20,273 nt of DNA from a virus, in the IMG/VR virus record IMGVR_UViG_3300009610_000104, positions 1 to 20,273 of that record; one strand, given 5' to 3'. The first letter of the stretch is position 1. Each line of letters begins with the position of its first letter. Below are positions 1 through 19,212 of this stretch, one piece after another. Position numbers and translations under genes: made by a program. Below the pieces are notes generated by a model. The model ran no database searches. It saw nothing but the letters and a program-made list of their open reading frames with translations, and had not been told where the DNA came from.

Positions 1-1961
1 GTGGTAGTTGTCGTTGTGGTTGTTGTAGTAGTTGGATAGCCGCAACCCGTATTCGTTACTTCACATTCCGCATGGCCGAAAATTGCGGGGTATGTACAAG
101 GGCAATCGCTATCACAATCGTCAACAATCAATTCCCAAGACATACCTACAGCGTCCCAATCCCAAATGCAATCTTGGTCGCATGGATCGGCAGTTGTGGT
201 TGTTGTCGTTGTTGGTTCGCCCGTGGTTGTATAGCAATTTGCGCACGGGTCTAGGGTTGTAGTTGTAGGCGGCGCGGGAGTTGTTGCGGGAGCATGGCAA
301 CCCGGATACACTGGCGCGCAAATATCACCATCTTCGGATGGTGCAACACAAGTACAACCTACAACCCCTTGCCATTCGCAATTGTTATCAATCAAAATCC
401 ATTCCGACAAATCAGGAATCCACCAATAGATACAACTACCGGTACAAAATATGTCCGGTGGTGGTGGTTCTACTGTTGTTGTTGTAACGCATGGCGTACT
501 ATCGGTTGCACAATCAATACAAGGGGTTTCGGGCGGGGAGCATGGACAACCCGCGTTGCAACCGTTTCGCGTGCGATGCCAAGTTAATACACCCGTTCCG
601 AAGTTTGGCAAACATGCCCAATCGCAACCATCCGCACAACCCGGCGCAAGAGTTGTTGTATTGCAATCGCAAGTTGTCGTTGGTGCTGGCGTAGTTGTTG
701 GTTCGGTTGTTGATGTAGTAGTTGTAGTTGTGGTTGTTGGTTCGGTTGTTGTAGTGCAATCAACTACCGGTTCCGTTTCACCCGATGCGCAAAATGTGTA
801 TGTGCATTCCCCCGGAGTTGTTCCGCAGAAGTTGGGATAGACGCAAGTGCAATTTGGTTCCGGGGTTGTCGTTGTGGTTGTGGTAGTTGTTGTATTATCA
901 CAATCGCACGGGTCATACGTTGTTGTAGTTGTTGGTTCCGGTTCTCCCGTGGTTGTTGGTTCGCTAGTTGTCGTTGTTGTGGTAGTGGTTGTTGTAGTTG
1001 TCGTTGTTGTGGTGCTAGTTGTAGTATTACAATAATCCTCAACTAAATGCCAACTTCCGTCCCCGCTCCATAACCATTGACAATTGCCGGAACATGGCGG
1101 CAGCGTGGTTGTAGTTCCCGGTTCTCCCGTAGTAGTCGTACTATGCATGTTGTGTTGTATGCCATCATGCACTAGCAACCCAACTCCCAATGTCTCAACC
1201 GCTTCCACTACATCGCACAAACCATATTCGGTTTCCTTTGGATTCCAAACATCCATGTACCACGGTTCTAGGCGGTTGTTAGGATCGCGCGCGGTTTTTA
1301 ATTCGCCTATTGCATTACGAAATCGTACCGCAATCCTCCCCGTTCCTAGTGTTTTTGTTTCCTTGTCGTATGCTGTAATTTCTTCTGTTACGCAACCAAT
1401 CACGTTGACCGGTTCGCGCGTGCGCGTAACGAGAATTAAATCATCGTCATTTGGTTCGGATAGACATACTAAACCGTGTCTATCGCTAGATACTTCCCAA
1501 GTATCAAAATCAACTCCGCAACTATGGGTTACTTCTGGAATCAAACCGGCAGCAACTTTGATCGGTACGGGTTTAGAAAACCCTATGATTTCTACAATGC
1601 CTTTATTGTTTGCAGGAATACCGATGCTGCCGTTTGTAAGCAGTACAAGCGGACTACCAAAATAGGTATCAATTCCGATACGTTCCGCGACAACTCTTGC
1701 CGGTTCCGCAAATGCGGCAGTATCTTTGATACCAAAAATGGAGTATGGGGGAATTTCGGCAACGGTTTCTATTTCGATATAGTACGTTGCATGTTTTGTT
1801 TTCGTTCCTAGTGCGCTACCTATTTCATCAATTACCCCATCCGCTCCAATACTCTTTGCCTTACACGCGCGTATAATGGCGTTAAACATATCCAAAGGGA
1901 TTCTATCCCCTTCGGATAATTCAATTAGAGTTTCGGCGGTTTGTGGTAAATGATTTGGCAC
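1..1961 (-). CDS. Giant Thr/Cys-rich putative tail fibre or adhesin, C-terminus cut by window edge
   Basis: One frame stays open from a GTG at 1961 to the left edge (653 codons read, no stop). I checked every codon. The first ~275 residues are an ordinary mixed sequence, probably the domain that joins it to the tail. From about 1134 leftwards it becomes Thr-rich linkers (runs of 4 to 16 Thr, broken by Pro, Glu and Gly) alternating with Cys/Trp modules. Its place after tape measure and a distal tail gene is where siphoviruses carry host-recognition fibres, so a surface adhesin role is inferred; no known domain is recognised. The GTG overlaps the upstream stop as TAGTG and has no clear Shine-Dalgarno; an in-frame ATG at 1889 is an alternative. 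Thr is written with ACT, ACA, ACG and ACC mixed, which supports selection on the protein. The true length is unknown. Confidence 0.85.
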   Translation of the reverse strand, partial: MPNHLPQTAETLIELSEGDRIPLDMFNAIIRACKAKSIGADGVIDEIGSALGTKTKHATYYIEIETVAEIPPYSIFGIKDTAAFAEPARVVAERIGIDTYFGSPLVLLTNGSIGIPANNKGIVEIIGFSKPVPIKVAAGLIPEVTHSCGVDFDTWEVSSDRHGLVCLSEPNDDDLILVTRTREPVNVIGCVTEEITAYDKETKTLGTGRIAVRFRNAIGELKTARDPNNRLEPWYMDVWNPKETEYGLCDVVEAVETLGVGLLVHDGIQHNMHSTTTTGEPGTTTTLPPCSGNCQWLWSGDGSWHLVEDYCNTTTSTTTTTTTTTTTTTTTTSEPTTTGEPEPTTTTTYDPCDCDNTTTTTTTTTTPEPNCTCVYPNFCGTTPGECTYTFCASGETEPVVDCTTTTEPTTTTTTTTSTTEPTTTPAPTTTCDCNTTTLAPGCADGCDWACLPNFGTGVLTWHRTRNGCNAGCPCSPPETPCIDCATDSTPCVTTTTVEPPPPDIFCTGSCIYWWIPDLSEWILIDNNCEWQGVVGCTCVAPSEDGDICAPVYPGCHAPATTPAPPTTTTLDPCANCYTTTGEPTTTTTTTADPCDQDCIWDWDAVGMSWELIVDDCDSDCPCTYPAIFGHAECEVTNTGCGYPTTTTTTTTTT
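3..1136 (-). repeat. Poly-threonine linkers and Cys/Trp modules inside the fibre gene
   Basis: Two half-modules recur. The first has the form C-x(2,3)-C-x-W-x-W ... W-x-L-(I/V)-x-(D/N)-x-C and is seen at about 1029-1094, 380-446 and 115-182, with a diverged copy at 540-638. The second has the form C-x-C-x-(Y/A)-P ... G ... C ... C and follows the first at about 300-365 and 45-110, and occurs alone near 790-855. Linkers between them are nearly pure Thr; the longest unbroken run is 16 Thr at 966-1013. The even number and regular spacing of Cys suggest disulfide-stabilised knots on extended stalks, which is inference. Confidence 0.8.
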
Positions 1962-2722
1962 TAGAACAAAATGCTAGAGAAATCACCCGGCGGATAATTC
2001 TTATACTCGCCAGCGGGATCGCGCAAAAAGATTTTTTCCCATGCTTGGGATTTCGCACGCCAGTATTTATTCCATCCCTGCGGTTTGTACGAAAACTTTA
2101 GGGCTAATGTCCACCCTTCGCTGCCGTTGGTGCGAATGATTCGGTTGAGTTGCGGCGGTTGATATAGTAAGGTTTCCTCATCAAACGTGAAACCTAGCAA
2201 CCCCGATACATAGGCAGTATCGTTGACTTGACCGATTGCCGTTAGAACGGCAGCGGGCATTGATGAAAGATTGTAAAGCGTGCGAACTAAGTTAAGCGAT
2301 TTGTATTGCCGTCCCGGCGCTTCACCTTCTAGCAATGCATCGCCATCCGCTGCCGCCCATGCAAACCGTTTGTAATCTTGCGTTATAAACTCAACATTCG
2401 GTTCCAAAGATTCGGATATTAAATCTTTGATTCGATGCGAGTAAGCAACAGTTACTAGCGCATGGTCATAGACTAACTGTTGACCATCGGTTGCCCCGCA
2501 CTCTCCCCCGCTTCGTATAGAAGCGTTGACCGCTTGCGGCGGGGAAGCAAAACCAGTACCCGGATAGACGCGCGGAGTACTTAGCAAGTCTGCCACAAGG
2601 GAAAAACGGTCATTCCAAGCGCAGCGGAGCGTAACCCCTGCGCTCATTCCGGTTTCAATGTCGAAACCTTCGGAAACTGTATTATGTTCTTCCGAACATG
2701 CAACAGCGGAGTAAGTACCCAT
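1961..2722 (-). CDS. Putative distal tail protein, function not recognised
   Basis: 253 residues with an ATG start 4 bases after the tape measure stop, preceded by AGGTAG at close spacing, so it is probably translationally coupled. I recognise no family. The protein is mixed alpha/beta in character, rich in aromatic residues, with no signal peptide or membrane segment, and has a few Cys in its N-terminal third (residues ~9-75). The gene between the tape measure and the fibre in siphoviruses commonly codes for the distal tail or hub protein that joins tube to fibre, so that is the likeliest role, from position only. Its stop overlaps the GTG of the fibre gene. Confidence 0.7.
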   Translation of the reverse strand: MGTYSAVACSEEHNTVSEGFDIETGMSAGVTLRCAWNDRFSLVADLLSTPRVYPGTGFASPPQAVNASIRSGGECGATDGQQLVYDHALVTVAYSHRIKDLISESLEPNVEFITQDYKRFAWAAADGDALLEGEAPGRQYKSLNLVRTLYNLSSMPAAVLTAIGQVNDTAYVSGLLGFTFDEETLLYQPPQLNRIIRTNGSEGWTLALKFSYKPQGWNKYWRAKSQAWEKIFLRDPAGEYKNYPPGDFSSILF

Positions 2723-2726
2723 TTAA

Positions 2727-4451
2727 CTACCTATGCAATGTGCCTACGGTTTCGATTGTTTCGGCGGTTTCTTCCGTTGCCTTAACAGTCTTATCCGCCA
2801 AGCTAATATGGTCTTTGGTAGTATGTACCAACTCGCCTAGCAACTTGTTATTTTCCGCCGCTAGTTCGTTAGCTTTTACAGCTAACTTAATTGGATCATT
2901 GTGAGTTGATGCAGCGGCGGCAGCAATACGCTTATTGAGGGAATCCAAATCCTCAAATGTTGCTTGCTGTCCCTTATCCTCTTTTTCTTTTTTCGCTGCC
3001 TTTGCCTTTTTCCCCTTTGTATCATCCTTCGTTGTGAATGCGTCCGGGTCAAATTCATCGCTTGCCGTATTGGTCAAGTCAATATCTTTTTCACCCTTGC
3101 GGAATAAGTCTAACAATGCTTTTTTGTTAGCGGCGAAATCTTCCGCAAATTTGCCGGTTAGTTTTAGAGTAAGCGCGGCAACTTTGGATTGTAAATCTTT
3201 TTCTAGTTCGGTTGGGATGCGCTCCGCAATTTCGGGTAACTCATCCATCGTTAATTGGAAACCTTCCAACAACGATGTAAACTTGAAATCAAATCCCCTG
3301 CCTTGCAACGCATCTTTGACGGCAACAACAAAATCCATAATGTTTTTGCCCATATTGGTTAAGATGGTTGCTTGAAACTGTTGCAAGTCAAACCATACCT
3401 TTAACCAATTATCACCAAACCAACTTAGATATTGCGGCAGCGCTTCCGTCAACCAATGTCGCAACATCTCAAAATTTGACACGGTTTGCAATGCCCATGT
3501 ATTGATCGCAAGCAAACCAACATCAACGAAATTTTCAATGACTAATTGCAATCCCGTGAATGCTGCAATTCCGGCATCTAGCATAAAATCAAAGAATGGT
3601 TGCAACTGTTGCATCATTGATTTAACTCCCGTTATCATCATGCTAGACCATGATGCAATAACCGGAATTAGATTTTCAATGACGGTAGCTAAACCATCCA
3701 TCATTGGGGATAGCTCTTGCAACCACGGTATCAACATTTCGCCAATTGATTCTGAAATATCCCCGAAACGGTTTTTCAGAATTTCCATTTGGCCGCTAAA
3801 TGTCCCGCCGATTTTTTCCGCCGCTCCCCCGAATTCGGATTGCAACTCTTTCAAGATAACACGCTGCGCGCCCATAACGTCGCCAGATTTAATTAGCGCG
3901 TTAATCATTTCCTCTTGTTGTTCCGTAAAGGATACGCCAGCGCGGGAAAGCGCGGTCATTCCTTTTAACGGATCATTGAGCGCTTTAGCAACTTGCATAG
4001 ATGCGCCGGATAAGTCTGTACCCATTACAGTTGCCATATCCTGCGCTGCTTTAGTTGCCTCAATAAAAATATCCCCCCGGATATTCTTAAAGGTTGCAAT
4101 GATTGCCATTGCCTCTTGCGTAGTTTCACTCTCAAATTTTGTTACGCTTTGCAACTGGTCTGCTAGTCCAACCAATTGTTCTGTAGTGAAACCGGCGGCG
4201 CGTCCCGTTGCTGTCATAACCGCATCTAGTTTCGCGGTTGATTCCTGCGCCGCTGCCGCTGCCTCAACAAAGGATTTGCCCCAATCAAAGACGGCGCGGA
4301 CAGACATAACCGCGCCGATGGTAGCACCAATAGCAGCAAACGCGCCCATGATTTTGCTACCGAATCCTTTAATCATGGATTCGGAACCACCTAGCGCATC
4401 CTTTAGGTTATCGTTCCTGCCTTTAATGTCGATGGTTACAGCGTTGCTCAT
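2727..4451 (-). CDS. Tail tape measure protein
   Basis: 574 residues. The N-terminal third has the family look: an early Ala/Gly-rich hydrophobic stretch (residues ~30-50), then a conserved-type region with alternating helices and an Ala/Gly/Phe-rich section around residues 75-250 typical of phage tape measure proteins. Several hydrophobic stretches follow at ~260-330, then a Lys/Glu/Asp-rich section (~460-500) and a terminal coiled coil-like segment. Such proteins fill the tail tube, fix its length and help DNA entry. At about 0.15 nm per residue, the known rule for this family, 574 residues would span roughly 85 nm of tail. The start ATG overlaps the stop of the upstream chaperone extension (ATGA). 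Length is on the short side for the family. Confidence 0.9.
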   Translation of the reverse strand: MSNAVTIDIKGRNDNLKDALGGSESMIKGFGSKIMGAFAAIGATIGAVMSVRAVFDWGKSFVEAAAAAQESTAKLDAVMTATGRAAGFTTEQLVGLADQLQSVTKFESETTQEAMAIIATFKNIRGDIFIEATKAAQDMATVMGTDLSGASMQVAKALNDPLKGMTALSRAGVSFTEQQEEMINALIKSGDVMGAQRVILKELQSEFGGAAEKIGGTFSGQMEILKNRFGDISESIGEMLIPWLQELSPMMDGLATVIENLIPVIASWSSMMITGVKSMMQQLQPFFDFMLDAGIAAFTGLQLVIENFVDVGLLAINTWALQTVSNFEMLRHWLTEALPQYLSWFGDNWLKVWFDLQQFQATILTNMGKNIMDFVVAVKDALQGRGFDFKFTSLLEGFQLTMDELPEIAERIPTELEKDLQSKVAALTLKLTGKFAEDFAANKKALLDLFRKGEKDIDLTNTASDEFDPDAFTTKDDTKGKKAKAAKKEKEDKGQQATFEDLDSLNKRIAAAAASTHNDPIKLAVKANELAAENNKLLGELVHTTKDHISLADKTVKATEETAETIETVGTLHR

Positions 4452-4681
4452 TCGTTATTCCTCTCCGCTAACCAACGCTTGTAATCCTCATCGGAAGCAA
4501 ACGTAATTGTTTTGCCGTCTGTTTCATCTTTCGACAAAGCAATCAGTTGCTCTAAGGGTGACATACTCGCAATGGTTGCGAATGACCACCCGTACGCGCG
4601 GGCGAGTGCGCGATATACCGTTATTTTTGACGGTGCGCTGCGTTTCTTCTCTTTCGATTTTTGCCCCCTTTTTTCCCGCTG
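4448..4681 (-). CDS. Tail chaperone C-terminal extension, reached by -1 frameshift (gpT-like)
   Basis: A 77-codon open frame lying -1 to the upstream chaperone gene. It opens just after a TAA at 4682-4684, overlaps the last 20 codons of the upstream gene and ends in a TGA that overlaps the tape measure ATG. It has no usable start near its beginning; the first in-frame ATG leaves only ~40 residues. The C-terminal half (Tyr/Trp-rich, with a motif resembling short chaperone T domains ending in a basic-acidic helix) looks like real protein. In lambda and many other siphoviruses the gene before the tape measure makes a second, longer product by ribosomal frameshift; position, frame and overlap all match that arrangement. 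It would be made only as a fusion. Confidence 0.75.
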   Translation of the reverse strand, partial: QREKRGQKSKEKKRSAPSKITVYRALARAYGWSFATIASMSPLEQLIALSKDETDGKTITFASDEDYKRWLAERNNE

Positions 4682-5109
4682 TTAGCGGGTAGGTTTGCCG
4701 TATCGGGCATGTTGAGAGTCTTGAAAACCCGGTTACATTCTTCTATGTTTTCCGGGTCTAACAACAATTGATGCAATGTTTCTTCGGAAACGTGCGGATG
4801 ATTCGTTTTGATTGTTTGCCAAATCAAACGGGTCATACCCTCAACTGTTGCCAGTATCCGCGCGCCCGTACCCGTGAAAGCGGATAGCGTGGCGGCAGTA
4901 CGGAAAGCAATGTCTAGCGATTCCTCCCGCTCCCGTTGCGTGGTCTGCGGGGTGAATGAGGATTTAACCGTATGAATATATTGGTTGCGTACCCATATAT
5001 CCAATTCGGTAATATCCGTATCGCTCAACCGGGATGCTGCAAACTTATGTTTGCCAAGATGCAACGGATGAGTTGCACCGGTTATTCTTTCCTCATTGCG
5101 AAGTATCAT
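4621..5109 (-). CDS. Tail assembly chaperone (gpG-like)
   Basis: 162 residues, soluble and mostly helical, ending in a Lys/Arg-rich tail that begins at the homopolymer run. It sits between the tail tube gene and the tape measure gene, the fixed position of the lambda G gene and its relatives, and its end overlaps an open -1 frame. The product would bind the tape measure during tail assembly and be absent from mature tails. The ATG has AGGA about 10 bases upstream. Sequence similarity is not obvious, so the call rests on order, length and the frameshift arrangement. Confidence 0.75.
   Translation of the reverse strand: MILRNEERITGATHPLHLGKHKFAASRLSDTDITELDIWVRNQYIHTVKSSFTPQTTQREREESLDIAFRTAATLSAFTGTGARILATVEGMTRLIWQTIKTNHPHVSEETLHQLLLDPENIEECNRVFKTLNMPDTANLPANSGKKGGKNRKRRNAAHRQK
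4663..4677 (-). promoter_or_regulatory. Candidate -1 ribosomal frameshift site
   Basis: The minus strand reads GGG AAA AAA GGG GGC in the chaperone frame, lying inside the overlap of the two frames. It is a run of homopolymers able to allow a one-base slip, but the phase is not the canonical X XXY YYZ heptamer. A second possible site is the AAA directly before the zero-frame TAA at 4621-4623, where a single tRNA could re-pair perfectly one base back. I cannot tell which is used. Confidence 0.5.
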
Positions 5110-5139
5110 TTTGCGGCGAATCCTACTAAAGAGAACGGA

Positions 5140-5976
5140 TTAACCCCACCATGCGGACATTGCGCCCGGTAGGGTAATGCTACCCAAATTCCCGCCAACG
5201 TGACCGTTCATTTCCATATTTACAGTACGTTGGATGATTGCTCCCGTTTCAATGTCAACGGTAATGTTGGTAAAGTTTCGTACCTTACCCCATACCAATT
5301 CCCAATAATCGGTATCGTCAATCCACAACCGGAGTTGCAAATCGTCCCCCTTATCAAATGCGTATGCACCCCGGATTACATCTTGTTGGACAATCGCCAA
5401 CGTCCAATCAAGATTACCCTTTTTGCGACCCGTGTTGCAACCAGTTGAGGAATTGACGTAAGCAAGGTTTTCGCTTGTGAGAGTAAGCGAAGCGGAAAGC
5501 AAATCTGTCATTTCCGCCCATGCCATGCCATCCGTCGAATACTCAATTTTGGTTCCGCAGACTTCCGGTACAGTTGGATCGGTCGCATCCGTAACCGCCG
5601 CGCCGCTTGCCCAAGTCAAACCCAAATGACCGGAGAAGTTGATTGTATGATTGATGATTTCCCCGTTTTGCCAATTCCAATTGATGTTGAGGGAATCAAC
5701 AATTGCGTTGCCGCTTGCCCGTTCGCCCGCGCCTGATACATCATCATTAGGCGCGGTGTAACCGATGAAAGCAAATATATCACCGGGTAAAACTACGGGG
5801 GAATGTCCGTAACCTTGAAACGTACCGTTCCAAGAGTTGATACCGTTGCGCCGCGCCGCTCCCTTTGCGGTATTGCTGGCGACGAATTTTTGAGGGGTCA
5901 TTTCATCAACAATCGTCCAATTACGAATTGTTGATTGACCATTGACAACGCCATGTTTGCCGGAACGAATAGACAT
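5140..5976 (-). CDS. Major tail tube protein with two related halves
   Basis: 278 residues, beta-rich. The two halves (about residues 3-125 and 139-262) follow the same pattern: a Trp-containing strand after a basic Gly/Asn-rich loop, then a Gly-Asp turn before a hydrophobic strand, then a final strand pair built around Asn/Glu-Gly-x-Ile-Ile and ending in an Asn/Ser-Gly-His turn. This suggests a fused double tube domain. Tail tube proteins stack as hexameric rings around the tape measure; a double domain would do so as trimers, as known for phage T5 pb6. ATG follows the upstream stop immediately, with GGAG nine bases before it. Location between the completion protein and the chaperone supports the call. 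Confidence 0.75.
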   Translation of the reverse strand: MSIRSGKHGVVNGQSTIRNWTIVDEMTPQKFVASNTAKGAARRNGINSWNGTFQGYGHSPVVLPGDIFAFIGYTAPNDDVSGAGERASGNAIVDSLNINWNWQNGEIINHTINFSGHLGLTWASGAAVTDATDPTVPEVCGTKIEYSTDGMAWAEMTDLLSASLTLTSENLAYVNSSTGCNTGRKKGNLDWTLAIVQQDVIRGAYAFDKGDDLQLRLWIDDTDYWELVWGKVRNFTNITVDIETGAIIQRTVNMEMNGHVGGNLGSITLPGAMSAWWG

Positions 5977-8241: not shown

Positions 8242-8676
8242 TTACTCAACTTGCGTTGTCGTTTCCGCAGGTTCAGTATGGCAAAGAATCGGCGGGGAAA
8301 GCGCCGCAAGTCGCGTAACAATGTCCGCGATTGTAAATGCAGCATCTTCCGCATCGTTCGCGGGGAGCATGGATTTTCGGATGATCGCTGGACCGCGCAC
8401 GAGAAATGCACGCTTACCACCGGGATAATCGTTCGCTGTTGCAACTTCATCAATATCTTCCGAAGTAAGCAACAAACCGTCGATTCCCGCTTCGCCGCCA
8501 GCAACCGCCAATTCCGCTTTGCCGCCCGTGATATTTACGGGCATCAACATTGGATTGGTAACGCCAACGGTGCTACCCGTTGTATTGCGCAAAGTGTATT
8601 CTTCGCGCGTATAGGCGGGGTTAGCTTCGTATGCAACCCCATCCGAAAGCGTTTTGTTTTTCGTCTTGACCGTCAT
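8242..8676 (-). CDS. Head decoration protein, lambda gpD-like
   Basis: 144 residues, Ala/Thr/Gly-rich and beta-strand rich, with the 'Gly-x-Pro ... Gly-x-x-x-Leu-x-Thr' style of the lambda D family: an early Tyr-Thr-x-Glu segment, a Gly-Ile-Asp-Gly-Leu-Leu-Leu segment near residue 65, and a Gly-Gly-Lys-Arg-x-x-x-Leu-Val-Arg-Gly-Pro strand near residue 85. Decoration proteins bind the three-fold axes of the expanded capsid and stabilise it. The position between protease/scaffold and major capsid genes is exactly that of lambda gpD. ATG has GAGG about 10 bases upstream. Confidence 0.85.
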   Translation of the reverse strand: MTVKTKNKTLSDGVAYEANPAYTREEYTLRNTTGSTVGVTNPMLMPVNITGGKAELAVAGGEAGIDGLLLTSEDIDEVATANDYPGGKRAFLVRGPAIIRKSMLPANDAEDAAFTIADIVTRLAALSPPILCHTEPAETTTQVE

Positions 8677-8753
8677 GGTTTGATTTCCTCAATACTGGTT
8701 TGTTGTTTGTACCGATGCTCTACCCGCTACCGCGACAACTGCAACCCGCTCAA

Positions 8754-9839
8754 CTATTGCTTCGCCGCTGCCGCACGCGCTTCCGCGTTTTTGATGAGCG
8801 GATTTTCGTTCGCGTCAAGCGAATGCGAAAGAGCAACCGTATTGCCTTGCGGTCCAGATTGCTCCCGCAGTTTCACGGGGTCATTTTTGGAAAGCGCCGA
8901 CAAAAGCGAATCAAATGGGTCGATTGCCTTAACATCGGTATTGGAAAGCGAAAGCGACAAAGCGCCATCGCTCAAATGCGATTTGGTCAAATCGTCCAAA
9001 ACCGCTGGCGTAATGTTTCCATTCTTAACCAGCGTATCCAGTTTCATTTTGCGATTGTCACGCAAAAGGTTGACCATGCTTGCCGTTACAACGGGCGGAT
9101 TGCCTTGCTGTACCGGCGGCGCGGGCGGGGTCGCTGGCGGGGTCGCCGGCGCGGGCGGGGTCGCTGGCGGGTCGCCTGCGGGGTTAGGCGGGTCGCTGGC
9201 GGCAGCGCTTACCTTTTTCAGAAGCGCCGCAACTGCCTTATCAATTGCCGCTTCCAATTCTTTTTCCTCAACCTTTTTGTCAATTCCCAATTTGTCCGCA
9301 ATAGAACGAAGCGCCATGTTTGGATTCTCCGCAAGGGTTAAAGATAACGCGATTGCCTCAAATTTTTCTAACCCCGGAATTACGGGATAATCCGTCAAGG
9401 CAACATGACGAATCGGACGATGATAAAGGTTTGCTTTACCATCCGTATATTCATCGGGTACGAAAATTGAGACGTTGGCGCTTTCGCCAAGTTTTAAGGA
9501 TTGCTCATCCTTAAATTCGATGTAACCATATAGCGCGGGAATTCCTCTTTTGTTTTGTCTGATTTCTGTTTTAATCAGAGTACCGCGCCGCTGGTCTGTA
9601 TCGGTGGTATGTTCTTTCGGTACGGGAATATCAACCCCGTTTGCACTCATTGCGATAAAAGTATTGTGCCAATGTTGCAATACTTTTTCGTCAACGGAAA
9701 ACTTGATATGCTCCCGCGCTGTTTTCTTCTCAAAATGTCCAACGTAAATCAACTCTTTACGACGTACTAACGGATTGCTTCCGCTCAATTCAAGCGGTTC
9801 CGTATTTGGAACATCGTAAGCAAAGTTGAGGATAGACAT
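8754..9839 (-). CDS. Prohead protease fused to scaffold, Mu I-like
   Basis: 361 residues. The N-terminal half (residues 1-165) has the layout of Mu I-like prohead proteases: a His in the Lys-Glu-His-Thr-Thr-Asp segment (His77) as likely catalytic residue, Ser120 or Ser124 as candidate nucleophile, and the family-typical Val-Ala-Leu-Thr-Asp-x-Pro segment near residue 150. A helical stretch (~175-212), a Pro/Ala/Thr spacer (~216-249) and a further helical C-terminus follow, which fits a scaffold that is cleaved away during capsid maturation. It comes before the decoration and capsid genes. The ATG at 9839 has no clear Shine-Dalgarno. Confidence 0.85.
   Translation of the reverse strand: MSILNFAYDVPNTEPLELSGSNPLVRRKELIYVGHFEKKTAREHIKFSVDEKVLQHWHNTFIAMSANGVDIPVPKEHTTDTDQRRGTLIKTEIRQNKRGIPALYGYIEFKDEQSLKLGESANVSIFVPDEYTDGKANLYHRPIRHVALTDYPVIPGLEKFEAIALSLTLAENPNMALRSIADKLGIDKKVEEKELEAAIDKAVAALLKKVSAAASDPPNPAGDPPATPPAPATPPATPPAPPVQQGNPPVVTASMVNLLRDNRKMKLDTLVKNGNITPAVLDDLTKSHLSDGALSLSLSNTDVKAIDPFDSLLSALSKNDPVKLREQSGPQGNTVALSHSLDANENPLIKNAEARAAAAKQ
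9093..9200 (-). repeat. GC-rich Pro/Ala/Thr spacer repeat in the protease gene
   Basis: Tandem copies of a GGCGGGGTCGC-like unit (plus strand) code for the Pro-Pro-Ala/Thr linker between protease and scaffold parts. It is the most GC-rich stretch in the window and could vary in unit number by slippage. Confidence 0.7.
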
Positions 9840-9864
9840 AGACGGTATGTACCCGGAAACCCTC

Positions 9865-9896
9865 TAGGTTAGCGGAGCGGCCAGCGGCTAGACCTA
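9865..9896 (-). other. Imperfect hairpin between minor head and protease genes
   Basis: TAGGTTAGC pairs imperfectly with GCTAGACCTA across a short GC-rich loop, in the only gap between the two genes. No T run follows, so it is more likely a processing or pausing structure than an intrinsic terminator. An 11-base word, GGGTACATACC, beside it recurs after the portal stop at 11521. Confidence 0.3.
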
Positions 9897-10772
9897 CTGA
9901 TATACTTGTCCGGGGTTAAAATCAAACCCCTTATCGGGCGATAGTTCCGCGCCGTTCTCTAGCGTATCCGGTGGTTTGCTGATTTCTCTTTCCTCAAAAA
10001 TTGGAATCGCTTGACAACGACAATTCCAACCATTAGGCGGATAGAATCGGGACCAAAAAGAATCACCCTTTGGCAGCGTTACATTATCTAGTACAGCGTG
10101 TGATTCTCTAACTCTATCATCGCCAACTGTTACATACTTGTAACCCCAAAGTATCTCTTGTATATCGGGGTCTTGCTCCGCTTGCCATTTACCTGCGCCG
10201 AATGTCAATTGTACTTGTGTACGAAAAATAGTTTCAAGTTGAAACGGTTTCTTTGGTGACAATCCCAATTCGTCAAACCGTTCCCCTAAAACCTTAATTG
10301 CTTCGCGTGCGGATGCCCCTTCGCGTACTAGGTCTGCAAAGGTTTCCTCTAGTTGTCCCTCAATTTCTTCCGATACGTTGTTGAGTATTCGCAACGCTTG
10401 CGTATCGTACTTCTCTTGCAACTCTTTTAGGTCTAACCCCGTGCGCTTTTGCAAGATGCTTAACGCATCATCTAGCGCGGACAGTTGCAATGCCCCCGCT
10501 TTTAGTTTCCTCATCAATGACGGTTCCTGCCGCTTAATCAAATAGAAGCGGCGGAAACCGGAAAGATGCGCCGCCATCATCGTATTAACTAGCAGTTGAT
10601 GTAACTGCTTAACGACATACGGCGCAACATGGAATTTGTTACCGCTACGGAAAGACTCAATTTGCCTTGCCCTAATCTTTCCACTAACGCGCACGGCAGA
10701 ACGAATAGACAACCGTGTTATGTTGTCTAAGTCTTTTAGGGAGCGTTGCAAAAAGATTGGCGATAACGGCAT
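9894..10772 (-). CDS. Minor head protein, Mu gpF-like
   Basis: 292 residues. The C-terminal third is characteristic of the phage Mu F family: Arg-Thr-Gln-x-Gln near residue 192, Tyr-x-x-x-x-Asp-x-Arg-Val-Arg-x-x-His, then Phe-Tyr-Pro-Pro-Asn-Gly-Trp-Asn-Cys-Arg-Cys near residue 255. These proteins are needed for head assembly and may be injected or stay at the portal. The N-terminal part is helical. Starts 2 bases after the lipoprotein stop (TAACAATG). It follows the portal region as in Mu-like head modules. Confidence 0.9.
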   Translation of the reverse strand: MPLSPIFLQRSLKDLDNITRLSIRSAVRVSGKIRARQIESFRSGNKFHVAPYVVKQLHQLLVNTMMAAHLSGFRRFYLIKRQEPSLMRKLKAGALQLSALDDALSILQKRTGLDLKELQEKYDTQALRILNNVSEEIEGQLEETFADLVREGASAREAIKVLGERFDELGLSPKKPFQLETIFRTQVQLTFGAGKWQAEQDPDIQEILWGYKYVTVGDDRVRESHAVLDNVTLPKGDSFWSRFYPPNGWNCRCQAIPIFEEREISKPPDTLENGAELSPDKGFDFNPGQVYQ

Positions 10773-10774
10773 TG

Positions 10775-10993
10775 TTAGCGGCGCGGTTGTTTTTGTTCGC
10801 GTGGTTTTCGCTCAATCTTTGGAAAGACAATAACGGGTTGAATAGGAATCGGATTCCCGTTAATGTCTTTCGGTGGTTCGGGAAATTCGATTTTGTGTTT
10901 TACGGTTGCATCATGCTTTACATTCACTTCCGTAGGACCACAACCCGATACGATGCAAGCGGAAACAACACAAACAATCAACATCATTCGCAT
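10775..10993 (-). CDS. Small lipoprotein
   Basis: 72 residues. ATG at 10993 is preceded by AAGGGAG at 8 bases spacing. A short basic start and hydrophobic stretch end in a Val-Ser-Gly-Cys lipobox (Cys near residue 13), followed by a Pro- and Lys-rich mature part. It would be exported and lipid-anchored. It sits between two head genes, where no virion role is needed. Small Pro-rich lipoproteins occur as outer-membrane spanins (lysis) or as superinfection-exclusion proteins; I cannot choose between them. No inner-membrane spanin partner is recognised nearby. Confidence 0.75.
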   Translation of the reverse strand: MRMMLIVCVVSACIVSGCGPTEVNVKHDATVKHKIEFPEPPKDINGNPIPIQPVIVFPKIERKPREQKQPRR

Positions 10994-11006
10994 AAACTGT
11001 ACTCCC

Positions 11007-11435
11007 TTACGCTGTATCCTCCGCATTAACAATGCCCGGAACGGAAGTAACGGACATTTCAACATCCAACTTGATTTGACCCGCAACGATACGCGCTAAT
11101 AGCGCTTCCGCCTCATCGCGTACCGCTTGCATTGCCGCTTGCGCATCTTCTCCCTCAACCAATCCGCGCGGCATTTGATACAGCGTACAACCGGCTAGTT
11201 GCGCCGATAGGTCGATGATTGTTTGCGGCGGGGTATCAAATGGAATATCGTAATATGTTCGCCGCAACCTATCGTTGATATAATCAGTTGCCTTTTGTGA
11301 TGCCCATGTAATACGGTTATTGATTGCCGTTGCACCCGCTCCGCTGTCCGCGACGTTATCAGCGTTTGCCCATTTCCTAGTATTGGTTTGACCAAACACT
11401 AGGTAAATATCATCGGCATCGTTATACGCTGGCAT
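11007..11435 (-). CDS. Head-tail connector, Mu gp36-like (DUF1320 type)
   Basis: 142 residues. An early Tyr/Phe-Gly, then a segment with Ile-x-x-Ala-Ser-x-x-x-x-Asp-Tyr-Ile-x-x-Arg-Leu, then Pro-x-x-(I/L)-x-x-x-x-Ala-x-Leu-Ala match the gp36-like family of head completion proteins. Helical throughout. It would form an adaptor ring under the portal, linking head and tail. The ATG has no Shine-Dalgarno and lies about 25 bases after a strong hairpin. Confidence 0.75.
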   Translation of the reverse strand: MPAYNDADDIYLVFGQTNTRKWANADNVADSGAGATAINNRITWASQKATDYINDRLRRTYYDIPFDTPPQTIIDLSAQLAGCTLYQMPRGLVEGEDAQAAMQAVRDEAEALLARIVAGQIKLDVEMSVTSVPGIVNAEDTA

Positions 11436-11460
11436 GATTCACGCAAGTTTAATCAAAGGA

Positions 11461-11500
11461 TAAATTGCCCGCACGCGCGCCATAGGTACGCGCGTGCGGG
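11461..11500 (-). terminator. Strong hairpin between portal and gp36-like genes
   Basis: A perfect 12-bp GC stem (CCCGCACGCGCG with its complement, 11468-11479 and 11489-11500) with a 9-base loop. On the minus strand it is followed by CAATTTATCC, only a weak T tract, so it may be a pause, partial terminator or RNA 3'-end stabiliser. Confidence 0.6.
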
Positions 11501-11531
11501 CGCGGGTAGAGCAGACTAGCGGTATGTACCC

Positions 11532-12860
11532 TTACTCCGCTGCCGGTAGCAAATCGTCAACCATCCGCCGCATACCGTTTCGCGCTTCGGTTTCATCCGC
11601 TCCCGCGCGTTGCTCATCCGAAATTGTCGGAATACCTAGTTTATCTCGCAACGCTGCCATATCAATCGAATCTGCCTCTTGCGCAAATCCTTCTATGTTG
11701 CTTAGAAATACTTCGTAAATCTTACGCAAGTATTGCAACGCTAGATCGGTAATGGGAGCAACCGCAATCCAAACTGTGTTTTCCGTTTCTGGTCCGTAGT
11801 TCAATCTCAACAACTGGTTTACTAGATGCCAATTGTATTGTTGCACCATGATTTGATGCCGCAACTCCATATTGGTAATTGCAAAATCCGCATGCGCTTC
11901 CGCTTCTGCTTTCGTTCCGAATTGCCCCTCTAAAACCGCACGTTCCGGTAAACCGAAAGCGCGTACTAGCAACTTGTCAATGTAGTTAAGTCGCTCAATA
12001 AACGCTGCGCCGCTTGTCGGATATGTACTCTTTAGTTCAATGATCCATGCGGGTTGATCTTTGTTTAAATCATCAACAAAGTTTTGCAGAGTACGGGGGA
12101 CAACGAAACTCCCGCTTGTTTCAAGAGTAACAAGCAAGTTGCGGGCAATTTCATAATTGTCTGTATCGACCCCGTTGAATGGGGATTTACCGGGCGGGTA
12201 ATGTATGACCCAATGCGCGCCCGCAATCTTTTTGTCATACCTTACGTTTGCGGTATTTGTAATGTTCCATTCGTCGTATGGTCCCTCAACCGCTTCCATA
12301 TCGGAAGTACCATACCAATTTGTTCCCTCAACATCAAAGTTGACTAGCAACGATTCGGGAATACCTAATTCAACTTTGATCGCTGTTTCGTTCAGCAATC
12401 CAGCGAATGAACCGTTTGCAGGATCAACTAGAATCTTTGTCTTGTCTTGCAATAACGGTTTGACTTTCGCTGGTACAATCTTTCCCGCGAATGCACCTAG
12501 CTCATTTAACTTGAATACTTTTTCGTATGGTTGCCAACCAAAATCAACACAACCATACAACGAAGTTTTCAATAGATGCATGCGCAACGGCATTACGCAA
12601 TCGTGTATGAAATCCTTTCCATCCGGGGGCGCGCCGTCTTTGGATTCAATCGACCATTGCGAAGCAAGTAGCGGAGCGATTGCCAATGCACGCGCCAACT
12701 TAACTGTTGGATGTTTGCGCATCAATCGCACCTTGCGATAGAATGCGCCGCTTGTCGCTGCTACTTTCGCCAACTCTACCGATTCACCACCGGTAATTAC
12801 TTGTCCTTGTGTTTGTTCGGTTAGGGGTGCTGATTCGGTTTGATTAGTTGCGGTTGGCAT
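11532..12860 (-). CDS. Portal protein, DUF935 (Mu gp29) type
   Basis: 442 residues from the ATG at 12860; a TTG three codons earlier is less likely. Matches the Mu-like DUF935 portal family by an N-terminal helical region, a segment of the type Lys-x-x-Phe-x-x-His-x-Cys near residue 70, and the late family motif Tyr-x-x-x-x-Leu-x-x-Ala-Phe-Gly-(L/I)-Pro with Gly-x-x-Gly-x-x-Ala-x-x-Ala near residues 315-340. It forms the dodecameric vertex through which DNA enters. Overlaps the terminase stop by 17 bases. A conserved-looking Ser-rich start is probably disordered. Confidence 0.9.
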   Translation of the reverse strand: MPTATNQTESAPLTEQTQGQVITGGESVELAKVAATSGAFYRKVRLMRKHPTVKLARALAIAPLLASQWSIESKDGAPPDGKDFIHDCVMPLRMHLLKTSLYGCVDFGWQPYEKVFKLNELGAFAGKIVPAKVKPLLQDKTKILVDPANGSFAGLLNETAIKVELGIPESLLVNFDVEGTNWYGTSDMEAVEGPYDEWNITNTANVRYDKKIAGAHWVIHYPPGKSPFNGVDTDNYEIARNLLVTLETSGSFVVPRTLQNFVDDLNKDQPAWIIELKSTYPTSGAAFIERLNYIDKLLVRAFGLPERAVLEGQFGTKAEAEAHADFAITNMELRHQIMVQQYNWHLVNQLLRLNYGPETENTVWIAVAPITDLALQYLRKIYEVFLSNIEGFAQEADSIDMAALRDKLGIPTISDEQRAGADETEARNGMRRMVDDLLPAAE

Positions 12861-14813: not shown

Positions 14814-14942
14814 CTATCTCAACATTGCTCTAATTGCGTATGCAATCATCAACACAATTAGAGTAATGAAAAAGATAGTACAATAAAAAGGGATTGACCC
14901 AACAAACCGCCACCAATTAACGATTGGTGCAAACGGTCTTAT
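14814..14942 (-). CDS. Possible 42-residue membrane protein after the thioredoxin-like gene
   Basis: The frame ends with a strong membrane segment (about 20 hydrophobic residues) and Arg, then a stop 6 bases before the terminator. It has no ordinary start in the gap. An ATA at 14942 overlaps the upstream stop (ATAA) and has AAAGGGAG 9 bases before it; alternatively an ATG at 15113 gives about 99 residues, overlapping the neighbour out of frame as with embedded phage lysis genes; or a -1 frameshift adds it to the neighbour. The hydrophobic run is real in sequence, but expression is uncertain. Confidence 0.4.
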   Translation of the reverse strand: MRPFAPIVNWWRFVGSIPFYCTIFFITLIVLMIAYAIRAMLR

Positions 14943-16144
14943 TGCAGTACGCTCCCTTTCGGCACGATTTGGACGGGGGCGCTTGCGACCGATTGAATCG
15001 TCTGCTGTTGCTGTCCCCCGTTCATTAGCAGTTGATAAAGGTAATTGAATTGTTCGTCTGTTATCAACAGCGGTTTGTTGTTTGCTTTTTGCATCTTGCG
15101 ATAGAGCATCCATCCGCCAAACGCTAGACCTAGCAGATTGCCCCCGCCCATTAGCAAACTGAGTACCCCCATTATCCCACCGCTGGTTACGGTGGGAGTA
15201 GTAGGGTTTACAACCGTTCCATCCGGTTTGCGTTGTTGCCATGCTGTCCAGTACGAAAACAAAGTTTGCGGGTCTGCAACCTTTGCTGTCATACATTGCA
15301 AACAAAACTCCGCATCCGCTTGCGGAATCATCAAACGGATTTGATCGGGAGTAAATGGAGTTGGTGCGCTAGGGGGCCATGTATTGTCAACTGGTCCGTT
15401 TGGTTGAAACGGATTAACAACAGTGTTAGGAATCGCAAAGGGAGGGGGCGCACCGATTGTAGAATCAGCACCCGCGCCCGGTTCCACTTGCGAAATCCCC
15501 GCTTTGCGAATCGTGTTTTCGCCCGTAGCGCGTCGCTCTTGCAACGTGCGAACATACTTAATAATGGCATCCCGCCATTGTTGAGTTGTTTTTTCCGGGT
15601 TGCCGTCGTAACCATGCGACAACAGTACAACGGTTTTGTTTGGTCCGTATTCGTTATTCTTCGGTGGTTGAATAACGATTGCAGGGAAACCACCTTTTTC
15701 CAAACGCGGTTTGATCGCTGCAAACCAATCGCGTTGCGTGGCATCCTCAATACGTCGTACTTGATAGTGGCATGTTGACTTGTCTGGTTCGTCAACATTT
15801 ATCCATGCTTGGAATTCCTTTGCATGGATAATGTCGTATTTGAGTTTGTCACAATACTTGCAATTTTCCTTTGTGACAACACAAACAAACCACTTGTGGG
15901 AATCATCTTCGGGAACCGCAAGCGCGTCCGCGATAATGTCAACATCGCTTGCGCGAATGGTTCCGGTTTCCTGAACCATGTTCCCGCGCCGCTCAATTTC
16001 CCATTCCGCGATTTCCGGTACGTCTGCCTCTAATGTAGGCGCAGCAATTACCGGTTTCGGTGGTTCGGGTTTCGGTACGGGAGTTTGCGCGTATGCGAGT
16101 GTAGCACCCGCCAGCGCAATCAAAGTAAACAGATAGCGAAACAT
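14939..16144 (-). CDS. Exported thioredoxin-like protein with CxxC and membrane anchor
   Basis: 401 residues. Signal peptide (residues 1-20, ending Ala-Tyr-Ala), Pro-rich spacer, then a thioredoxin-like domain (~60-200) with Cys-Lys-Tyr-Cys at 95-98 after a hydrophobic strand and a cis-Pro candidate in Gly-Gly-Phe-Pro (154). A Pro/Gly-rich spacer (~220-265), a second Cys pair Cys-Leu-Gln-Cys (281-284), a Gly-rich membrane segment (~322-348) and a Gln-rich tail follow. Most of it would face the periplasm or outside. A disulfide isomerase or reductase role is plausible but inferred; it could also be a membrane-tethered host-modifying factor. AAAGGG is 7 bases before the ATG. Thioredoxin-fold proteins of this build are unusual in a head/tail operon. 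Confidence 0.85.
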   Translation of the reverse strand: MFRYLFTLIALAGATLAYAQTPVPKPEPPKPVIAAPTLEADVPEIAEWEIERRGNMVQETGTIRASDVDIIADALAVPEDDSHKWFVCVVTKENCKYCDKLKYDIIHAKEFQAWINVDEPDKSTCHYQVRRIEDATQRDWFAAIKPRLEKGGFPAIVIQPPKNNEYGPNKTVVLLSHGYDGNPEKTTQQWRDAIIKYVRTLQERRATGENTIRKAGISQVEPGAGADSTIGAPPPFAIPNTVVNPFQPNGPVDNTWPPSAPTPFTPDQIRLMIPQADAEFCLQCMTAKVADPQTLFSYWTAWQQRKPDGTVVNPTTPTVTSGGIMGVLSLLMGGGNLLGLAFGGWMLYRKMQKANNKPLLITDEQFNYLYQLLMNGGQQQQTIQSVASAPVQIVPKGSVLQ

Positions 16145-16194: not shown

Positions 16195-16755
16195 TTAGCG
16201 CCACCATTCAATCAGTTGCGGATTCTCACTAGACGGACGTTGCAATACGACAATCCACGGACCACTAGCAAGGTGCAACCGCTTAAACGCATCTTCGCTG
16301 TACTCATCAACCTTACCGGTTGAATTGTTGTTACAGACAAACCACGTTTTCGTATTCGGGTCATAGCCGTATAGAGTTTGGAAATGGTTTCCACCCGCTC
16401 CAATTGCAGCAAATCGACCCGTACGCGCCGCCCATCGCATCCATTGATCGGTAAGCGGATACCCGGTTACATTCCACGCTTTGATACCCCGTGCATTGCA
16501 GTAGTTCGCCACGCGACTAGGACCACTACCGCCGCGCTGCGCTTTGCCGTATGGCGTATCCCATAACAGCGAAGTTGCATTTAAGTCGTTGCAATGTACG
16601 CCAGTCATTCCGATAGAACATTGCACGCAACTACCATCGGGGTTGCGAAACCATGCTCTTGTATCCGGTTCAAGTTGCATCTTGCTAACTGGCGTTTCGT
16701 CATTCGCAATAGCAGACATTGAACCGAACAAAACGATAAACAAAGCAAAACGCAT
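16195..16755 (-). CDS. Exported papain-like (C39-type) cysteine peptidase
   Basis: 186 residues with a signal peptide (1-17). Catalytic residues are visible in order: Gln45 (oxyanion) and Cys46 in Cys-Val-Gln-Cys-Ser, His124 in Gly-Gly-Asn-His-Phe, and Asn142/143 in Cys-Asn-Asn-Asn, the Gln-Cys-His-Asn set of papain-like peptidases. Several other Cys may form disulfides. It would act outside the cytoplasm, on cell-wall peptides (an endolysin), or on a protein at the surface. AAAGGGAG lies 5-6 bases before the ATG, the strongest ribosome site in the window. No other endolysin is seen here, which makes a lysis role attractive but unproven. Confidence 0.75.
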   Translation of the reverse strand: MRFALFIVLFGSMSAIANDETPVSKMQLEPDTRAWFRNPDGSCVQCSIGMTGVHCNDLNATSLLWDTPYGKAQRGGSGPSRVANYCNARGIKAWNVTGYPLTDQWMRWAARTGRFAAIGAGGNHFQTLYGYDPNTKTWFVCNNNSTGKVDEYSEDAFKRLHLASGPWIVVLQRPSSENPQLIEWWR

Positions 16756-18546: not shown

Positions 18547-19185
18547 TCACTCTTGACGTTGCAAGCGGTCTGCTATTTTCTTCGCGCTCCATAATGCTAT
18601 ATCACATTGTGCGCGTATTGTTGATTCAACGCATCCGAGTTGTGACGCTATTTCCCCGTATGTCCAACCTAGAACGTAGTACAAGTGTATTAGCGTGCGG
18701 TCATACTCGGATAGTTCCCGCAGTATGGTTTGTACTAATTCCCTATCGCCAATAGCGTCTAATCGGGAATCAACTGCAATCGTCTTATCTTGCAATGCCG
18801 CTGTATCGTAATTGACGGGTTGCAATACATACAACGAATCCCATATTGGAGTATCCCCCGGACTAAAGAGCGATATTGCAACTTCTCTTTCGCCATCCCG
18901 CAAACGACGGTTTAACCATTTCATTGTGTACCATCGCACGGTATGGCAAACATGCCAAAGTAATTCCCCCTTTGTTGGATCATAGGTATTGATTGCGCGT
19001 GGTACACACTCAATAACTACATCGCTCCATAGATCGTCAAGCAAATGAAATTGCTTACGACAACAATTGCGCAGAGTACCGCGCAAGGTTGATTCATGCT
19101 CTAGGATGAAATCGAATATGCCCGCGTAGTATTCGCGTTGCAATCGTTTCAACTCTTTTGCAGATTCCGTATCGCCCGATTCCAT
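18547..19185 (-). CDS. Phage-encoded sigma-70 family factor
   Basis: 212 residues from ATG 19185 (GTG at 19191 is possible). Region 2 lies at about 31-96, with the Asp-Asp-Leu-Trp-Ser-Asp core-binding segment and a long basic/aromatic helix (His-Val-x-x-Thr-Val-Arg-Trp-Tyr) for -10 contact. Region 4 lies at about 148-206, with a helix-turn-helix at ~173-196 (Thr-Tyr-Gly-Glu-Ile-Ala-x-x-Leu-Gly-x-x-x-x-Thr-Ile). There is no region 3, so it resembles ECF-type factors. It stands first among the recognised genes and probably directs RNA polymerase to phage promoters, perhaps for the virion genes downstream. Confidence 0.85.
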   Translation of the reverse strand: MESGDTESAKELKRLQREYYAGIFDFILEHESTLRGTLRNCCRKQFHLLDDLWSDVVIECVPRAINTYDPTKGELLWHVCHTVRWYTMKWLNRRLRDGEREVAISLFSPGDTPIWDSLYVLQPVNYDTAALQDKTIAVDSRLDAIGDRELVQTILRELSEYDRTLIHLYYVLGWTYGEIASQLGCVESTIRAQCDIALWSAKKIADRLQRQE

Positions 19186-19212
19186 TCGCACGCATCCATT
19201 GCGGTTTAGAGT

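Follow-up and report, generated by a model that had tools for sequence, protein, structure and literature searches.

The stretch of DNA analysed here (the window) is an entire IMG/VR record of 20,273 bases, and its left contig end cuts through a minus-strand ORF of 653 amino acids (positions 3–1961), whose product, referred to below as the stalk protein, carries Cys/Trp modules and runs of threonine. The features of this ORF and of the two genes that precede it, in the order of transcription, are as follows.

2727..4451, minus strand: tail tape measure protein, upstream of the stalk gene (Pfam TMP_2, 7.1e-12; phrog_27166, 1.6e-31)
1961..2722, minus strand: gene of unknown function, 253 amino acids, between the tape measure and stalk genes, without a family match
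1140..1961, minus strand: N-terminus of the stalk protein, 274 residues without Thr runs or a family match
1029..1094, minus strand: first half of module 1, residues 290–311, CSGNCQWLWSGDGSWHLVEDYC (positions 1–24 of an independent profile, i-E 2.4e-7)
852..1028, minus strand: Thr-rich insertion loop that splits module 1, with runs of 16, 5, and 10 Thr
789..851, minus strand: second half of module 1, residues 371–391, CTCVYPNFCGTTPGECTYTFC (profile positions 23–46, i-E 0.02, weak alone)
639..788, minus strand: Thr-rich linker between modules 1 and 2, with runs of 4 and 8
489..638, minus strand: module 2, residues 442–491 (i-E 1.5e-9)
297..446, minus strand: module 3, residues 506–555 (i-E 1.4e-11)
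183..296, minus strand: Thr-rich linker between modules 3 and 4, with runs of 4 and 7
42..182, minus strand: module 4, residues 594–640 (i-E 3.2e-15), the copy folded by AlphaFold2 (pLDDT 93.5)
3..32, minus strand: beginning of the terminal Thr run, truncated where the contig stops; in the sister contig, 31 Thr are followed by a Cys-rich C-terminus and then by a glycosyltransferase (GT) gene

An earlier note on this DNA had described a fibre gene at positions 1–1136; the feature is real, but that interval holds only the part of the ORF that bears the modules and Thr runs. The remainder was recovered from a sister contig, IMGVR_UViG_3300027533_000027 (L002; 49,383 bases), which differs from the window at two of the 7,961 bases compared and was the sole match in scans with the single stalk protein. 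The full gene product has 818 amino acids, 65 of them Cys; its longest Thr run has 31 residues, and its C-terminus is rich in Cys. It is complete in this independent contig, with no stop codons or frame changes over the repeats, and the window contig breaks off within the longest Thr run, the site of 30-nt repeats. Chimeric assembly was ruled out by the agreement of the two contigs and by the same layout in dozens of relatives. The N-terminal 274 residues are the probable virion-attachment part of the protein. At the C-terminus (approximately positions 8320–8457 of L002) lies a second Cys motif, GACC...C...C..(R)GG....G..C....C, which occurs in tandem in the stalks of L310, L333, and L269 and may represent a separate small domain family. 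In two further loci (L287, positions 2007–5800; L290, positions 1763–5814), two adjoining stalk proteins stand in tandem ahead of one GT, suggesting duplication of the stalk gene.

The Cys/Trp domain has six Cys residues in approximately 47 amino acids (C-x3-C-x-W-x-W-x4..6-W-x6-C-x3-C-x-C-x2-P...C). An initial alignment of the modules proved too diverse to scan with, and degenerate DNA patterns were used instead; most of the pattern matches were low-complexity antisense frames, which were discarded by script. A profile built from 60 relatives, with all window sequences left out, detected three complete domains in the window protein (modules 2–4 above) and also matched residues 290–313 (profile positions 1–24, 2.4e-7) and 368–391 (positions 23–46, 0.02, weak), these two parts of the first domain lying 54 residues apart. 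Most of the 25 related rows have a first domain split in the same order by a Thr-rich insert of 12–105 residues, and in L299 and L302 the halves are only 5 and 3 residues apart. The profile matches and these unsplit copies indicate that what the earlier note had counted as three first-half and three second-half modules are parts of one kind of domain: the Cys/Trp modules are real, but they make up four domains, and a Thr-rich insert interrupts the first. Judging from these alignments, a Thr-rich tract can sit as a loop inside the domain.

An iterated search collected 325 domain copies from 88 viral proteins, the number of modules varying from 1 to 9 per protein; 201 of the 325 copies were less than approximately 70% identical in a simple ungapped comparison. 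AlphaFold2, run on 62 natural domain sequences, predicted a confident fold with three strands (pLDDT 93.5). Foldseek searches with this model gave best E values of 1.4 in the PDB and 1.8 in BFVD, neither of which is meaningful, and because small domains search poorly, we do not claim a new fold. No consistent match to the domain was found in Pfam, a profile search of PDB sequences with the module returned none, and the stalk matched no known fibre family in PHROGs or Pfam, in keeping with the initial impression that no described family has this form. One of 294 planctomycete genomes carried the module. The Cys/Trp domains are probably disulphide-rich adhesion heads. They also occur in other protein contexts: two proteins (L258, positions 1–1626; L265, positions 9921–11645) combine a poly-Ser linker with one Cys/Trp domain, the frame of the latter ending early where the former, from a Gemmata MAG, has a GT25 domain in the same ORF, and one viral protein (L193, positions 3–1646) unites collagen-like Gly-x-y repeats, Thr runs, and Cys/Trp domains.

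The longest Thr run inside the window contains 16 residues, as originally reported, and the run at the window edge reaches 31 in the full gene. When residues 271–687 were shuffled 10,000 times, the longest Thr run averaged 5.4 residues and never exceeded 12. The linkers, at 61% Thr, 14% Ser, and 11% Pro, form long Thr/Ser/Pro tracts, as in mucins; the Pfam Mucin model scored 17.8 bits, under its cut-off of 34.7, a likeness of composition only and not of homology. Summed over the runs, the Thr codons were ACA (51), ACT (24), ACC (19), and ACG (13). All four codons are therefore used over the runs together, but not within every run as had been claimed, one run consisting of four ACA codons. The description of the DNA as something other than a simple repeat likewise holds in that four Thr codons are used, but the run DNA contains tandem repeats of approximately 30 nt, and ACA is enriched in the runs compared with other genes (chi-square p 1e-5), indicating that DNA duplication also shapes the Thr runs. 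Given the 30-nt repeats, part of the Thr run length may be mutational, which counts against a mucin reading.

In all 10 of the phage loci tested with PHROGs (the window and nine others), a tape measure gene lay upstream of the stalk, which sat one or two genes past it. This conserved place suggests that the stalk is probably a tail-tip or fibre protein, and its position in the genome makes a tail fibre within the virion the probable gene product. It resembles other tail fibres encoded past a tape measure gene in its genome position, modular repeats, and variable module number, whereas it differs from them in matching no PHROGs or Pfam fibre family. In a tblastn search of 50,697 phage records, the stalk protein, the module consensus, and a second GT were all unmatched, and the GT of the window phage found one short, weak match in a Leptospira phage. 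The IMG/VR loci represent uncultured viruses, and the labels of three MAGs (L257, an archaeon; L264, Chloroflexota; L258, Gemmata) may reflect binning. A prophage described below (L372) points to Planctomycetota as the host of a relative of the window phage only.

Elsewhere on the minus strand of the window, positions 14939–16144 encode a protein of 401 amino acids with a signal-like N-terminus, a weak Thioredoxin_2 match (E 0.0019), and a CKYC motif. Phage tails assemble in the reducing cytoplasm, and this thioredoxin-like protein might be relevant to how disulphides form in the Cys-rich stalk. Its gene is adjoined by one for a secreted-looking protein of 186 amino acids without a family match (positions 16195–16755), and a phage sigma-70 region 4 protein (Sigma70_r4_2, 2.8e-9) is encoded at positions 18547–19191; both of these genes are on the minus strand as well.

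Outside the window, the gene next after the stalk in the sister contig (L002, positions 8486–10348) encodes an enzyme of 621 amino acids that matches Pfam GT2 (6e-10) and, less strongly, a methyltransferase-like family (RMNT_CmcI, 1.2e-4). Its sequence matched a generic GT2 enzyme, TarP, at E 4e-9 and GalNAc-T10 at only 0.38, which counts against a mucin-type reading, and it had no significant similarity to GT27 or GT60. Among 45 divergent enzymes of this family, Pfam assigned GT2 to all 45 and Glyco_transf_7C to two; no ricin-type lectin domain was found at the C-terminus, where Pfam gives methyltransferase-like families and DUF6171. The AlphaFold2 model, made from six sequences, was moderate overall (pLDDT 70, pTM 0.53, core approximately 80–94). 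When Foldseek was run with this model, the best 50 PDB rows were all polypeptide GalNAc-transferases (best E 2.9e-12), and VIA ranked a polypeptide GalNAc-transferase (Z 22.0 over 251 residues) above chondroitin polymerase (Z 20.0 over 200 residues), with teichoic-acid and other GT2 enzymes lower. The moderate quality of the model and the score of chondroitin polymerase count against a mucin-type reading. The residues D97-x-H99, F255-G256-G257, E259, H263, W281, and H283 were invariant in all 45 enzymes. DxH (D97 and H99) thus stands in place of DxD in the phage GT, and Taujale et al. (2020, PMC7185993) report this replacement for GT27 and GT60, which both O-glycosylate Ser/Thr in polypeptides. 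In ppGalNAcTs, a C-terminal His coordinates the metal (Taujale et al. 2020, PMC7185993), and the invariant H283 is its candidate counterpart.

The phage enzyme is therefore predicted to be a GT-A enzyme with a fold closest to that of the polypeptide GalNAc-transferases, and its likeness to GT27 and GT60 extends over the predicted fold (Z 22, approximately 250 residues), the DxH metal motif, the region of the GGE motif, and the Thr-rich partner protein. It differs in being phage-encoded and in falling under Pfam Glycos_transf_2, and whereas most GalNAc-Ts of GT27 have a C-terminal ricin-type lectin domain, it has a methyltransferase-like region instead. Because its sequence is of the GT2 type and lacks significant similarity to GT27, we refer to it as GT27-like and not as a GT27 member. 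A relative encoded on a planctomycete chromosome (L369, positions 9422–11884), with no stalk near it, carries a C-terminal TOD1/MUCI70 glycosyltransferase-like domain (4.9e-17).

The association of the enzyme with Thr-rich stalks was examined from both sides. Among eight module-bearing records found with the DNA patterns, the GT occurred in five, all of them Thr-linker loci, and was absent from two Ser-linker records and from L268. A profile of six GTs, used alone on IMG/VR, detected 207 viral relatives, and in 75 of the best 80 of these 207 loci, a Cys-rich ORF with Thr/Ser runs lay upstream on the same strand, at no more than 120 nt from the GT in 66 of the 75. As for the other five of the best 80, four are truncated, the GT starting less than 400 nt from a contig end, and in the fifth (L342) a module protein is encoded 2.2 kb upstream. 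When redundancy was reduced, the best 80 formed 58 clusters at 95% identity and 32 at 50% identity, with a stalk in all 32 of the latter. A stricter definition of the stalk was satisfied by 72 of the 80 GT loci versus 5 of 239 other viral loci, three of these five being true relatives; as the 239 loci came from pattern scans and are a non-random sample of viruses, the contrast serves as a guide, not a probability.

Three of 294 planctomycete genomes also contained the GT (L369, L370, and L372/L373). The last of these lies on a 5.2-Mb contig and adjoins terminase, portal, and head-protease genes, indicating that it is a prophage. Its GT (in L372) comes after a protein of 1003 amino acids with Thr/Ser-Gly repeats (TGTGSD...) and a Laminin_G_3 match, and in L370 a tape measure gene is followed by a TTGTGTT-repeat protein, small genes, and then the GT. 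The Cys/Trp domain is absent from the stalks of both L370 and L372, suggesting that the enzyme follows the Thr and not the knots. The GT homologue of L369 has no stalk nearby, which counts against the pairing. The Ser-linker knot proteins have other GTs: L258 has a GT25 within the same ORF, and L266 an adjoining GT71-like enzyme with a weak GT9. In L193, which has a Thr linker, the next ORF contains GT9 and a weak GT2. The guess in the earlier note that the stalks are mucin-like and could be glycosylated is thus backed by their near-obligate linkage to a GT with a predicted GalNAc-transferase-like fold.

The combination of a Thr-rich stalk with an adjoining GalNAc-transferase-like GT makes it probable that these viruses produce a mucin of their own. 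We assign a probability of roughly 0.7 to the reading that the locus encodes a mucin-like phage tail stalk with a dedicated O-glycosyltransferase. The computation covers the structure of the gene, the family of the domain, the synteny, the conserved motifs, and a predicted fold; we infer in addition a location in the virion and mechanical and adhesive roles for the stalk. The Cys/Trp domains (four here and 1–9 in relatives) would be strung on Thr-rich linkers, the Thr tract of the first forming a loop within it. In the infected cell, the GT-A enzyme would move a sugar from a nucleotide donor onto the hydroxyls of the Thr tracts, its presumed acceptors, and the methyltransferase-like region of the same enzyme, together with further GTs downstream, could lengthen the glycans or cap them. 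Densely O-glycosylated Thr tracts would be stiff, extended, and protease-resistant, and the stiff stalks would keep the Cys/Trp domains, as probable adhesion heads, away from the virion. We also favour, somewhat less firmly, a fuller version in which near-pure-Thr tail stalks with a new six-Cys adhesion domain are O-glycosylated by a phage enzyme with the eukaryotic mucin-initiating fold and DxH, the fused methyltransferase-like region may cap the glycan, and the Ser-linker lineages use other GTs.

The linkage of a GT with tail genes can have other causes, which counts against a dedicated enzyme. The GT might modify something else, such as a different protein of the virion or, in receptor masking or superinfection exclusion, a host surface glycan; it would then adjoin the stalk only through a shared tail region. 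It is well established that phage GTs can alter host polysaccharides, further GTs and methyltransferases often lie downstream as in glycan-synthesis clusters, and the best sequence matches include the wall-teichoic-acid GTs TarP and TarS. We nevertheless consider this unlikely, given the near-obligate Thr-rich partner over 32 divergent clusters, a pairing that is kept where the Cys/Trp domain is lost, the DxH motif with a ppGalNAcT-like predicted fold, and the fusion in L258 of a GT25 to a module protein with Ser linkers. A little less credible again is the proposal that the Thr tracts are bare flexible spacers, which grow by slippage or unequal exchange of the 30-nt repeats, with glycosylation absent or irrelevant. 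It would account for the tandem repeats and the ACA-skewed codons, but four Thr codons are used, the linkers keep approximately 61% Thr with Ser, Pro, and Ala across dozens of diverged phages, and the GT partner would then be unexplained.

It is also conceivable, at long odds, that the stalk gene is of the moron type and that its product is secreted by the infected host or displayed on the cell surface instead of forming part of the virion. Relatives with the same domain (L141 and L193) lie without tail context in these data, and the disulphides of Cys-rich domains need an oxidising place; against this stand the position of the stalk gene, one or two genes past that of the tape measure protein in each of the 10 phage loci tested, and the start of the window protein, where no signal peptide is evident by eye.

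The reading as a glycosylated tail stalk has partial parallels in known systems. Animal mucins and apicomplexan mucin-like proteins also alternate Thr/Ser/Pro-rich tracts with Cys-rich domains, whereas the phage stalk has nearly pure Thr runs, a new Cys/Trp domain, and a place in the tail module of a tailed phage, and its glycosylation is predicted. Glycosylated virions are reported for the mycobacteriophages Che8, Corndog, and Myrna, in which the capsid and the tail tube carry the modified proteins (PMC12363180, citing Freeman et al. 2023). The likeness lies in a phage-encoded GT that acts on virion proteins; the system described here differs in pairing the predicted enzyme with a dedicated Thr-rich stalk. 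A literature search on poly-threonine, mucin-like, or GalNAc-transferase phage proteins, with subscription papers and preprints outside its scope, returned nothing relevant.

Phage-encoded virion glycosylation is already known, and what would be new is a phage protein that would be mucin-like by design together with a dedicated, mucin-type-like enzyme, of which we found no account. If this reading is correct, it would reveal a prokaryotic-virus route to mucin architecture and a new small disulphide domain family, and would offer an enzyme family testable as a bacterial tool for Thr O-glycosylation. It would also allow a direct test of what virion glycans do in phage adsorption and would bear on the origin of the GT27 and GT60 enzymes.
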